NCBI GenBank assembly: GCA_030739975.1
Contig: JASLYC010000018.1
Location: 1 to 43,276 of the forward strand
DNA from: Gammaproteobacteria bacterium
GTDB lineage: Bacteria; Pseudomonadota; Gammaproteobacteria; PS1; Pseudothioglobaceae
Reading direction: 5' to 3'
DNA length: 43,276 nucleotides
Shown piece after piece: positions 9,507 to 29,291 of the stretch (its first letter is position 1; every line of letters starts with the position of its first letter). Below the pieces are notes generated by a model that worked only from the letters and a program-made list of their open reading frames with translations, made no database searches and was not told the DNA's origin. Made by a program: the position numbers and the translations under genes.

Positions 9507-10730
9507 ATGGAAGTTATTTCTAATTTTTCCAAATTATCAGCCACTGTAGAATGCTTTTCCAACAAGGATAATATTAAGGTTGGCGAGTACAGCAACCAAG
9601 ATATACTAAGTCTTGATAATTTTAACAAAGCTAAAATAGAGATTGAATCGTGGGATGGATATAAACCAACCACACTACATTCTTTGAAAGATATCGCCAT
9701 TTATAACAATGTCGAGGAAATACTATACAAAGACGAATATTCGCGCTTTTCTTTAAAGAGTTTTAAGGCTCTTGGTGGCGCCTATGCTGTATCAAAATTA
9801 TTAATAGAAGAGCTGAAAAAAAATGAAATTGATGCAAACTCAGATGACCTAATATCTGGAAGATATGCAGGCATTACAGCCAAAATTACGGTATGTTGTG
9901 CTACCGATGGAAACCATGGCCGCTCAGTGGCATGGGGATCAAAAATGTTTGGTTGTGGTTGTGAAATATATATTCATAAAAATGTCAGTATCGCTAGAGA
10001 AAAAGCAATTGCAAAGTTCGGAGCAAATGTTCATCGTATTGATGGAAATTATGATGACTCTGTTCATATTGCAGCAAAAGTTTCAGCGGATAACAATTAC
10101 TTCGTTGTTTCAGATACATCATATGAGGGCTATACAGAAATACCAAAAAGCGTAATGCAGGGCTACACAATTATGGTCGATGAAGCTATTAACCAAATAA
10201 ATAAGTTTCCTACACATGTGTTCTTACAAGGAGGTGTGGGCGGATTAGCAGCTGCTGTAGTATCATATTTCATAGAATATGACCATATAAATACACCTAT
10301 TTTTGTAGTAGTTGAGCCGTCTAATGCAGACTGTCTATTTCAGAGCGCAAAGAGCGGCATTCCAACAATAATTGAAGGCGATTTGGAGACAGTAATGGCT
10401 GGACTGGCATGCGGCGAGGTATCTTTGTTAGCTTGGGAAATATTAAAGAATAGAGTTAATCATTTTATGGTTATAGATGATTTATGCGTTGCCCCCACTA
10501 TGCAATTATTAGCGTCTAACTCTATACCAATAATATCTGGAGAGTCTGCAGTAGCAGGCTTGTCTGGTTTTTTGTTGGCAGCAAAAAATGACTCACTCCG
10601 AGAAGAGTTAAATATAGACAGTAATTCACGTATATTGTGTTTTGGTACTGAGGGAGATACAGACGAAGAGGCCTACACAGTAGCTGTTGGAAAATCATCA
10701 CAAGATATTATAGATTCAGCAAATAATTAA
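9507..10730 (+). CDS. Diaminopropionate ammonia-lyase-like PLP enzyme
   Basis: SFKALGGAYAV (PLP lysine), CCATDGNHGRSVAWGSKMFGC, GNYDDSV, FLQGGVGGLAAAV; resembles YgeX/DpaL. Confidence 0.85.
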   Translation: MEVISNFSKLSATVECFSNKDNIKVGEYSNQDILSLDNFNKAKIEIESWDGYKPTTLHSLKDIAIYNNVEEILYKDEYSRFSLKSFKALGGAYAVSKLLIEELKKNEIDANSDDLISGRYAGITAKITVCCATDGNHGRSVAWGSKMFGCGCEIYIHKNVSIAREKAIAKFGANVHRIDGNYDDSVHIAAKVSADNNYFVVSDTSYEGYTEIPKSVMQGYTIMVDEAINQINKFPTHVFLQGGVGGLAAAVVSYFIEYDHINTPIFVVVEPSNADCLFQSAKSGIPTIIEGDLETVMAGLACGEVSLLAWEILKNRVNHFMVIDDLCVAPTMQLLASNSIPIISGESAVAGLSGFLLAAKNDSLREELNIDSNSRILCFGTEGDTDEEAYTVAVGKSSQDIIDSANN

Positions 10731-26373: not shown

Positions 26374-26415
26374 TCCAACTATTGAATGCCTTTTAAAATA
26401 ATTAGAAAGAATTTT

Positions 26416-26432
26416 CAATGTAAGTTACATTG
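26416..26432. promoter_or_regulatory. Perfect 17-bp palindrome CAATGTAAgTTACATTG, candidate operator
   Basis: 8-bp arms with 1-nt spacer, 54 bp upstream of the first rhodanese gene. Confidence 0.45.
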
Positions 26433-26440
26433 TTAATAAT

Positions 26441-26485: not shown

Positions 26486-27127
26486 ATGAAACTTAAATCA
26501 TTAGTTATAAGTGCTGCATCTGTAGCATTATTAGCATCCACAGCAGTAACCGCTAAGCCAGTTGGCATAGTTTCTGGTGTTATGGATGTAGCTGGTATTT
26601 CTAGAAATCAAGATAATACAAATACTATTCATTCAGCGTTCACAAAGACTTCACGTCCTTGTCCGCCGTTCTGTATACAGCCAACTCACCCGTTTGCTCC
26701 AGCTTCGGTTGACACTGTAACTGAACTAGACATGATACATGCTGCACGCGATCTTGCTGGTGGTGACACTTCAGTAATGGTAATTGACGCTCGTACTCCG
26801 GCTTGGACTAAAGCTGATAAGGGTGGAACAATTAAAGGTGCTGTTAACATTCCATTCAACACAATCAACTCTAAGGCTTTAGCTAAAGATCCTATGGCTG
26901 TTGTTGAGATCTTAACAGATCAAATGGGTGTTGCTGATATGGATGGCGTACTAGACTTTTCTGGTGCTAAGACTTTGTACTTGTTCTGTAATGGTTTGTG
27001 GTGTGGTCAATCACCTGCAGCTATCAGAGCATTGCTACAGATTGGTTACCCAGAAAGCAAGCTTAAGTACTACCGTGGTGGTATGAACTCATGGCATTCT
27101 CTTGGTCTTTCGACTGAAGCATTGTAA
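26486..27127 (+). CDS. Exported rhodanese-like sulfurtransferase, copy 1
   Basis: Signal peptide MKLKSLVISAASVALLASTAVTA; PCPPFCIQP motif; VIDARTPAWTKADKGGTIKGAVNIPF; active-site loop LYLFCNGLWCGQSPAAIRAL; YYRGGMNSWHSLGL. Confidence 0.85.
   Translation: MKLKSLVISAASVALLASTAVTAKPVGIVSGVMDVAGISRNQDNTNTIHSAFTKTSRPCPPFCIQPTHPFAPASVDTVTELDMIHAARDLAGGDTSVMVIDARTPAWTKADKGGTIKGAVNIPFNTINSKALAKDPMAVVEILTDQMGVADMDGVLDFSGAKTLYLFCNGLWCGQSPAAIRALLQIGYPESKLKYYRGGMNSWHSLGLSTEAL
26846..27095 (+). repeat. 250-bp near-identical block, copy 1 (partner 27611-27860)
   Basis: Hand alignment gives 8 substitutions and no indels over 250 bp. Confidence 0.85.
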
Positions 27128-27136
27128 AACAGTTGC

Positions 27137-27158
27137 AAGGGGTGCCTAGGTACCCCTT
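27137..27158 (+). terminator. Hairpin between the rhodanese genes (terminator or attenuator)
   Basis: AAGGGGTgcctaggtACCCCTT, 7-bp perfect stem extendable via G-U, followed by ATTCTTTTATT. Confidence 0.4.
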
Positions 27159-27181
27159 ATTCTTTTATTGGAGAGATAATT

Positions 27182-27892
27182 ATGAATAAAATATTTTTTC
27201 TAGTTTTTACATTGTTTACAATTACAGGAATTCAGGCTGGCGATTCTATGCCTAGTACGCATAACTGGAATATTGGTTCTACTAATGCTGCGGTTCATGC
27301 ACACAGGGTAGCTTCTAGTAAGCCGGTTGGTATTGTTTCTGGTGTTTTGGATGTTGCTGGTATTTCGCGTAATGCGTGGAATGGTAATAAAATACATTCG
27401 GCATTTACAAAGACTTCACGTCCATGTCCGCCGTTCTGTATTCAACCAACTCACCCGTTTGCTCCGGCACCGGTTGATACTGTGACTGAGTTAGATGTTA
27501 TCCATGCTGCACGTGATGTAGCTGGTGGCGATACTTCAGTAATGGTAATTGATGCTCGTACTCCGGCTTGGACTAAAGCGGAAAAAGGTGGCACAATTCC
27601 ACATTCAGTCAACATTCCATTCAACACAATCAACTCTAAGGCTTTAGCTAAAGACCCTATGGCTGTTGTTGAGATCTTAACAGATCAATTTGGTGTTGCT
27701 GATATGGATGGCGTACTAGACTTTTCTGGTGCTAAGACGTTGTACTTGTTCTGTAATGGTTTGTGGTGTGGTCAATCACCTGCAGCTATCAGAGCATTGC
27801 TACAGATTGGTTACCCTGCAAGCAAGCTTAAGTACTACCGTGGCGGCATGAACTCATGGCAGTCACTAGGATTAAGCACTGTGGGTAGATAA
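27182..27892 (+). CDS. Exported rhodanese-like sulfurtransferase, copy 2
   Basis: Signal peptide MNKIFFLVFTLFTITGIQA; same CPPFC and CNGLWCGQS motifs as copy 1; extra N-terminal segment GDSMPSTHNWNIGSTNAAVHAHRVASS. Confidence 0.85.
   Translation: MNKIFFLVFTLFTITGIQAGDSMPSTHNWNIGSTNAAVHAHRVASSKPVGIVSGVLDVAGISRNAWNGNKIHSAFTKTSRPCPPFCIQPTHPFAPAPVDTVTELDVIHAARDVAGGDTSVMVIDARTPAWTKAEKGGTIPHSVNIPFNTINSKALAKDPMAVVEILTDQFGVADMDGVLDFSGAKTLYLFCNGLWCGQSPAAIRALLQIGYPASKLKYYRGGMNSWQSLGLSTVGR
27611..27860 (+). repeat. 250-bp near-identical block, copy 2 (partner 26846-27095)
   Basis: See copy 1; flanking coding sequence is visibly more divergent. Confidence 0.85.
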
Positions 27893-28438
27893 TTGATTAA
27901 ATTCAATAAGCAAAAAAAAGGGATGCTTATGGCTTCCCTTTTTTTTACATTAATTTCATCTGTGTCAGCAGAGACTCTGAGTGAGCGTTGGTACAGAATT
28001 GGTTTCGAGTACTCCCAGCAAGGTATGAACGATGACGCCTTTAGGTGGATGATAAAGTCTGCAGATGCTGGCGATGCCGCTGCACAGAACAATATTGGGT
28101 TGAGTTATCTGCACGGACTAGGGGTAGAAAAAGACGCCAAGAAGGCTTTCTATTGGTTTGAAAGATCAGCTAACCAGGGTCTGCTTTATGCACAGAGCGA
28201 ACTGGCTATGCTGTATTACCTTGGTTCCGGGGTTGATATGAATAAGTCTATGGCGCTTGATTGGTGGTTACTTGCTGCAAAACAGAATGATGAATATGCC
28301 CAATTCAATTTAGCTTCACTGTATTTAGAGTTGAACGATATCCAAAAGGCCTACTATTGGTTTACAATTGCCAATAACAATAAACATCCCGACGCCCAAG
28401 ACGCATTAGATAAACTGAGAGAAATGTATGTTGAATAA
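27893..28438 (+). CDS. Exported Sel1-repeat protein
   Basis: TTG start directly after the rhodanese stop (TAATTG); signal peptide MIKFNKQKKGMLMASLFFTLISSVSA; Sel1 repeats AAAQNNIGLSYLHGLGVEKDAKKAFYWFERSANQG and YAQSELAMLYYLGSGVDMNKSMALDWWLLAA. Confidence 0.75.
   Translation: MIKFNKQKKGMLMASLFFTLISSVSAETLSERWYRIGFEYSQQGMNDDAFRWMIKSADAGDAAAQNNIGLSYLHGLGVEKDAKKAFYWFERSANQGLLYAQSELAMLYYLGSGVDMNKSMALDWWLLAAKQNDEYAQFNLASLYLELNDIQKAYYWFTIANNNKHPDAQDALDKLREMYVE
27912..27946 (+). terminator. Strong terminator-like hairpin inside the start of the Sel1 ORF
   Basis: AAAAAAAAGGGA-tgcttatggct-TCCCTTTTTTTT: perfect 12-bp stem, 11-nt loop, 8-T run. Confidence 0.75.
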
Positions 28439-29291
28439 ATTTAATTTTTGTTGTTGTTTTTTATTGCAACTTTTTTTTGTCCACTCTGTATTTGCTACAA
28501 CACAACACTTTGTTGATACAAGTGACCGAGATATGATATTAGAGCACTATAACGAGTTTACAAAGAATACTCCAGATTTTGAAAGAGAGGAACGCATCAT
28601 AAATGAGATAGAGGACTCAGTAATGGACGGTGACGTTGAATACTTATCTCTAACAGATGATGAAGAGGTGTTCAGTATCTACACTGAATCTGAGCTTGAT
28701 GACACCAAGGGAGGGGTCATTGTCATTCACTCAAGGGGCCACCACGCTAACTGGTCAAGCGTTATTAAACCTGTCCGTGTTGAACTGACTGAGAGAGGCT
28801 GGAGTACTCTATCAGTACAGATGCCTGTTCTAGATAAGAATGCAAAGTATTATGATTATGTGCCAATCTTCCCATATGCACACCAACGTATTAGTGCCGC
28901 GATTGACTTTTTTAAAGAACAAGATATAAATAACATAGTTATAGTTGCACATGGCTGTGGTGCTCATATGTCTATGAGTTATATTGACAAGTATGGTAAT
29001 TCTGATATTTCAGCCTATGTTGGCATTGGAATGGGCGCAACTGACTACAAACAAAAAATTATCAGGCAGTTTCCGTTAGCAAAAATGGATATGCCGATAC
29101 TAGATATTTTTGGCGAAAAAGACTATCCTGGGGTTGTTAGGCTGGCAAAACAAAGAAAACCATTGCTTAACAAAGGTAACAATAGAAATCTGCAATTGCT
29201 TGTAGAGAATGCTGACCATTATTACCAAGAGCGCGATACTGTCAAGTTATTGGTAGAGAAAATAGGTAATTGGCTGGATAATATCAACTAG
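28428..29291 (+). CDS. Exported alpha/beta-hydrolase-fold protein, DUF3530-like
   Basis: Signal-like N-terminus, GGVIVIHSRGHHANWSSVIKPVRVELTERGWSTLSVQMP, NIVIVAHGCGAHMSM; overlaps the upstream gene by 11 nt. Confidence 0.65.
   Translation: MLNKFNFCCCFLLQLFFVHSVFATTQHFVDTSDRDMILEHYNEFTKNTPDFEREERIINEIEDSVMDGDVEYLSLTDDEEVFSIYTESELDDTKGGVIVIHSRGHHANWSSVIKPVRVELTERGWSTLSVQMPVLDKNAKYYDYVPIFPYAHQRISAAIDFFKEQDINNIVIVAHGCGAHMSMSYIDKYGNSDISAYVGIGMGATDYKQKIIRQFPLAKMDMPILDIFGEKDYPGVVRLAKQRKPLLNKGNNRNLQLLVENADHYYQERDTVKLLVEKIGNWLDNIN

Follow-up and report, generated by a model that had tools for sequence, protein, structure and literature searches.

Inside the reading frame of a Sel1-repeat gene, directly 3' of a secreted rhodanese-like gene, lies a hairpin that is most likely, judged from its comparison across related genomes, the intrinsic terminator of the rhodanese mRNA doubling as codons for the Sel1 signal peptide. 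The window (the whole stretch of 43,276 nucleotides analysed here) comes from a 1.5-Mb draft genome, and named relatives sharing the locus include Candidatus Thiodubiliella endoseptemdiera. The reading we favour with good, though not complete, confidence is that of a dual-use element: a predicted rhodanese terminator that also supplies the signal-peptide codons, with partial read-through, modulated by ribosomes, feeding Sel1 and DUF3530. Table 1 gives the features of the locus.

Table 1. Features of the rhodanese-Sel1-DUF3530 locus, numbered by position in the window.
Feature	Position	Strand	Basis
Weak sigma-70-like promoter match, 5' of first rhodanese	26412..26440	+	9/12 matches (number of such matches in the scan not above chance)
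First secreted rhodanese-like gene (tandem paralogue)	26486..27127	+	Pfam PF00581, E 3.1e-8
Ordinary intergenic terminator-like hairpin between rhodanese 1 and 2	27137..27158	+	Terminator scan
Second secreted rhodanese-like gene, hairpin 3' of its end	27182..27892	+	Pfam PF00581, E 2.1e-7
Sel1-repeat protein gene, 181 aa, predicted secreted	27893..28438	+	Pfam PF08238, E 1.2e-23
Sel1 TTG start, abutting rhodanese stop (TAATTG)	27893..27895	+	Position kept in 30/32 loci
Sel1 signal peptide, MIKFNKQKKGMLMASLFFTLISSVSA/E	27893..27970	+	Translation; by eye (n-, h- and c-region, A-x-A-like end)
Intrinsic-terminator hairpin with A8/T8 tracts, within Sel1 ORF	27912..27946	+	Inverted repeat, fold, conservation in 32 loci
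DUF3530 gene, 11-nt overlap with Sel1 3' end	28428..29291	+	Pfam PF12048, E 6.8e-25

The hairpin consists of AAAAAAAAGGGA (27912-27923), TGCTTATGGCT (27924-27934) and TCCCTTTTTTTT (27935-27946), and being symmetric it is terminator-like on the minus strand also. The initial annotation described a perfect 12-bp stem with an 8-T run, holding in-frame ATGs at 27923 and 27929, and both coordinates and sequence are as described. RNAfold gives -16.5 kcal/mol, as good as none of 200 dinucleotide shuffles (z -4.2 to -4.4), and a scan of the whole window, both strands, finds three hairpins at -14 kcal/mol with at least 8 T (this element being counted once per strand) against 0.025 in shuffles; such a hairpin is beyond chance. 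Its T8 is the 3' arm pairing with the A8, with no additional tail, and its G+C core combines GGGA/TCCC with GC/GC on the other side of a T.T mismatch. With a core of -9.4 kcal/mol, against -11.3 for the HU core, it falls a little short of the HU terminator, and its T-run is longer than that of the terminator after ndk; this core stem, that of the source species itself, is among the weaker ones. A simple terminator scan of the window did not pick up the hairpin, probably because of the internal mismatch and the loop limit. An Rfam search gave no known RNA family at its gathering score (best E 0.17, all matches far below). Elsewhere in the window, a second ORF-internal terminator-like hairpin lies at 10537-10573 (-14.6 kcal/mol, T6), 176 nt before the end of its ORF.

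The rhodanese stop codon (TAA, 27890-27892) is followed directly by the TTG that had been proposed as the Sel1 start. An in-frame TTG is found 0-5 nt past the rhodanese stop, about 15-21 nt 5' of the stem base, in 30 of the 32 loci compared, and in the other two (L064 and L059) an ATG 5' of the stem serves instead. The stop-to-hairpin distance varies over all three relative frames, and the TTG tracks the Sel1 frame. No Shine-Dalgarno-like sequence precedes the TTG across the loci compared. Starts at the in-frame ATGs 27923 and 27929 are not general (the first position is GCG in 11 of 32 loci; the second is ATG in 3). Because the only start present in all 32 loci is the TTG, or ATG in two, upstream of the stem, the TTG assignment is well supported. 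Translation bears out the further claim that the T-run provides Phe-Phe codons of a signal-peptide hydrophobic core, the signal peptide being assigned by inspection: the hairpin codons read K-K-G-M-L-M-A-S-L-F-F, in which the Lys-Lys/Arg-Gly of the n-region comes from the A-tract and GGG, a set of hydrophobic residues from the loop, and the Phe-Phe(-Phe) of the h-region from the T-tract. Over the 32 loci these codons follow the pattern K/R-[G/R]-[M/V/A]-L-x-[A/T]-[S/P/L]-x-F.

Sel1 orthologues occur in 36 of 83 genomes of the family, most with the same rhodanese-Sel1-DUF3530 order. The hairpin sits in the same Sel1 codons at 32 orthologous loci from 31 genomes (Thioglobaceae/SUP05 relatives, sulfur-oxidising marine bacteria; the set leaves out duplicates, broken copies and detached copies), and is found in every one of the nine genera represented. 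Of all 35 loci whose Sel1 start region is intact, it lies within the Sel1 ORF in 32 and is non-coding only in three genomes, G055, G050 and G058. What is conserved is a G+C stem with A- and T-tracts, the T-tract being present in 32 of 32 loci with five invariant T columns; the spacing from rhodanese stop to stem is 16-22 nt in 30 loci, and 31 and 189 nt in the other two. Among 369 sampled class members, no Sel1 orthologue outside the family was found at E 1e-30, and the order-level search for outgroups covered the same 83 genomes only; there being no outgroup with Sel1, nothing outside the family polarises the order of events, whether the terminator or the signal peptide came first. A search for further copies with a model (R1) built from these loci found strong sites at this locus, matches that are there by construction, and the weaker matches inspected adjoin other genes 3', as ordinary terminators do, none of them shown to lie within signal-peptide codons.

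Several other features of the locus vary. The 3' parts of the tandem rhodanese genes (26735-27105 versus 27500-27870) share 92% DNA identity over 371 nt, unlike the 5' parts, a pattern such as recent duplication or gene conversion would leave. The inter-rhodanese terminator at 27137-27158 varies by lineage, with no obvious hairpin in L055, L058, L060 and L064, and differs in this from the Sel1-embedded one. In genus g6 (L106, L071 and L067), rhodanese and Sel1 are decayed and the DUF3530 match is still long (in L106 also unbroken); L106 and L071 retain the hairpin as a drifting copy. The operon is also a recurrent site of a MITE-like element (L059, L061/L030, L066, L104) whose terminal repeats resemble GAGACCTTTGCATAAATA...TATTTATGCAAAGGTCTC; it lies between the two rhodanese genes in Thiodubiliella, in the gap that parts the hairpin from rhodanese in L059, and close to the detached terminator and Sel1 in G058.

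RNA structure within the Sel1 codons is, by the comparative evidence, under clear selection across the family. When the 32 loci (31 distinct) are aligned without gaps, 97% of stem cells are paired and 21 cells are changed on both sides of the stem, versus 4.1 in shuffles, with every slid-register control far lower (the loci are related, and neither these cells nor the codons counted below are independent events). Most compensatory changes take G-C to A-U at one pair and C-G to U-A at another, and the pair states change repeatedly and independently by parsimony on a FastTree phylogeny of the mature protein. Synonymous recoding, in which the peptide is kept and codons are redrawn from background usage (500 draws per locus), yields folds averaging -4 to -9 kcal/mol against -10 to -19 for the native sequences, whose values are reached in 0-17 of the 500 draws at each locus. 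The resulting z values run from -2.2 to -6.0 (mean -3.8); 288 control windows from Sel1 bodies have a mean z of -0.24 (sd 1.1), and the detached Sel1 copies and other signal peptides scatter within about +/-1.8 of zero. Codon choice in the stem is also skewed relative to background, with Ser as TCC in 24 of 24 cases (5% in the background), Pro as CCC in 6 of 6 (6%), Gly as GGG in 21 of 22 (13%) and Arg as AGG in 10 of 10 (11%); the rare codons are those complementary to the opposite arm. Aligning homologous loci for conservation beyond codon constraints had been put forward as a check, with relatives that keep the peptide and lose the complementarity as the adverse case. Such relatives were looked for and the opposite was found, a hairpin kept with complementarity exceeding the needs of the codons.

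Here is an RNA structure selected inside codons for which natural separations show which function owns the hairpin. In G055 and G050, rhodanese is followed by the hairpin (AAAAGGGGCGTTATGTTAATAGCGCCTTTTTT and GGAAAAGGGCGTAATAACGCCCTTTTTT, respectively) out of any Sel1 frame, and Sel1, further downstream, starts at an ATG and has another signal peptide, one free of the hairpin. G058 has the same terminator 3' of rhodanese on one contig and the detached Sel1, with its own ATG and no hairpin, on another. The former TTG reads TTA in all three, and the three detached Sel1 copies form one group within the embedded lineages (tree with midpoint rooting). At L059, rhodanese and the hairpin are parted by an inserted repeat, the MITE-like element, whose end supplies the ATG of the ORF, still upstream of the hairpin. 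At separation, then, the hairpin remains with rhodanese and the start codon is lost, which argues that the element is the rhodanese terminator and that the TTG is a real start. Comparison of loci shows a conserved hairpin, selection at the RNA level, coupling to rhodanese rather than to Sel1, and the start codon; together with the three separations, this supports the proposal of the initial annotation that one element could both end rhodanese transcripts and encode a signal peptide.

In the mechanism proposed, the terminator would end an abundant rhodanese mRNA about 55 nt past its stop codon, a minority of polymerases would read through to make the Sel1-DUF3530 message, and expression would thereby be stepped down between a sulfur enzyme of very high abundance and its scarce partners. 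Two rhodanese-like genes, possibly this pair, were the second and third most transcribed in the Thiodubiliella (Thioglobaceae) symbiont of a deep-sea scallop (PMC10999363). A scan of the + strand from 26737 to 28512 found no sigma-70-like promoter site, and any promoter upstream of the hairpin meets the same terminator, so that the simplest and probable source of Sel1 and DUF3530 expression is partial read-through; the rhodanese gene could contain a promoter that the scan would miss as too weak or atypical. In E. coli, a terminator 17-18 nt past a stop codon is 12-80% efficient (0.12-0.8), depending on sequence, the repression of a terminator by the ribosome fades beyond about 27 nt from the stop, and terminators in the opening 100 bp of an ORF are efficient, the newly initiated ribosome not having caught up (PMC4824070). 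With the stem starting no more than 16-22 nt past the rhodanese stop, a last rhodanese ribosome that follows RNA polymerase closely would probably increase read-through. From this spacing and the E. coli data we infer actual termination that is partial and modulated by the rhodanese ribosome, with read-through accordingly partial, rather than a strict gate by Sel1 translation. Judged by the spacing, it is plausible that rhodanese ribosomes set the level of read-through, and the ribosome that matters is more likely to be completing rhodanese than translating the Sel1 leader. Predicted terminators inside ORFs face the objection that functional ones would yield non-stop mRNA (PMC4824070). Terminated rhodanese mRNAs would carry the Sel1 start and no stop codon, with MIKFNKQKKGMLMASLFF as the predicted truncated product, and a weak TTG without a Shine-Dalgarno sequence would limit initiation on them. 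Keeping such non-stop translation low may be the reason for TTG here as against ATG in the three detached copies.

A translation-gated attenuator, in which ribosomes starting at or entering Sel1 melt the hairpin and Sel1 and DUF3530 are transcribed only during leader translation, is the most serious of the alternatives, and we consider it unlikely. The whole hairpin does lie in translated sequence a short way past the TTG, and there is precedent in the pyrBI attenuator, a terminator in a leader ORF (cited in PMC4824070), but the E. coli terminators described in that work as lying in the opening 100 bp of an ORF are efficient. The stretch from TTG to stem carries no conserved regulatory codons or run of one residue in the 32 loci, and a TTG without a Shine-Dalgarno sequence would make a poor gate.

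Rather less probable is a complete rhodanese terminator combined with a separate Sel1-DUF3530 promoter inside the rhodanese gene, that is, overlapping operons as exemplified by frd/ampC. Conservation of the terminator, the far higher expression expected of rhodanese, and the unbroken DUF3530 match in L106, whose rhodanese and Sel1 are decayed, would all fit; against this, the scanned + strand has no sigma-70-like site, and such a promoter would sit upstream of the hairpin, its transcripts facing the same terminator. We regard it as improbable, more so than either of these, that the main role of the hairpin is to shield a processed rhodanese mRNA at its 3' end or to sequester the ribosome-binding region of Sel1. 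A stable stem just past a highly expressed gene could serve the first purpose, and in some genomes the hairpin covers an internal ATG or GTG, but neither protection nor start masking would need the T-tract kept in every locus, and the Sel1 start is upstream of the stem. That the hairpin is a chance by-product of coding a Lys-rich n-region and a Phe-rich h-region in an AT-rich genome has next to no probability: the favoured AAA and TTT (71% of Lys, 85% of Phe) make a T-run alone partly expected, but synonymous recoding, the fixed rare TCC, CCC, GGG and AGG codons, and the covarying stem columns rule it out, and the hairpin survives as non-coding DNA 3' of rhodanese in three genomes.

As a dual-use terminator and signal peptide, the 35-nt element holds two codes, for termination and for protein export, and makes a testable case. 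It suggests a reason for a conserved weak TTG and a way in which a signal peptide might arise from a terminator, and it is a warning for start-codon and terminator annotation tools that filter out such overlaps. Tentatively, and with more doubt than belief, exaptation of an intrinsic terminator as a signal peptide might be a general route, of which this family of Pseudomonadota would be a fixed, long-conserved case. If so, the layout of a terminator (A-tract, G-rich arm, loop, C-rich arm, T-tract), in the right frame, would amount to a Lys-rich n-region followed by a Phe/Leu-rich h-region, and an ORF extended back through an upstream terminator would gain both a secretion signal and read-through-dependent expression. 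A literature search of partial coverage found no overlap of terminator and signal peptide, which is weak evidence of novelty.

The hairpin is most likely a variant of the internal operon terminator or attenuator, a known class, in an unusual and conserved place. It has the marks of an intrinsic terminator: a stable G+C stem-loop beyond chance, a T-tract directly after the stem, and compensatory change. The frd terminator/ampC attenuator of E. coli lies in an untranslated leader, with a promoter inside the upstream gene; there, as here, the terminator of one unit stands at the start of the next, whereas here it lies in codons and no promoter match is found. Internal operon terminators set stoichiometry in ABC importers of cellulolytic Clostridia (PMC9045158), where, similarly, a terminator stands within one operon between an abundantly needed first gene and low-level partners. 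The arrangement at the present locus agrees, with rhodanese upstream and downstream genes that have no promoter match, the abundance of rhodanese being taken from another genome (PMC10999363) and expression here being predicted. In Clostridia the terminators are 3' of the binding-protein gene, with no signal-peptide coding described in the part of PMC9045158 considered; their usual location is outside the downstream coding sequence, whereas here, in 32 of 35 loci, the hairpin is within the next ORF and encodes its signal peptide. The pyrBI attenuator of E. coli (cited in PMC4824070) is likewise an intrinsic terminator in translated sequence, sensitive to ribosome position, but it senses UTP and uses a leader peptide of its own. 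At the present locus the ORF is a structural gene that continues into the Sel1 domain, rather than a separate leader ORF of the trp/pyrBI type, and neither conserved regulatory codons nor a sensor is found between TTG and stem in the loci compared. Closest in geometry are the tR2 test constructs (PMC4824070), with a terminator less than about 27 nt from a stop codon and within the first 100 bp of an ORF; those are artificial, whereas the hairpin here is evolved and conserved.
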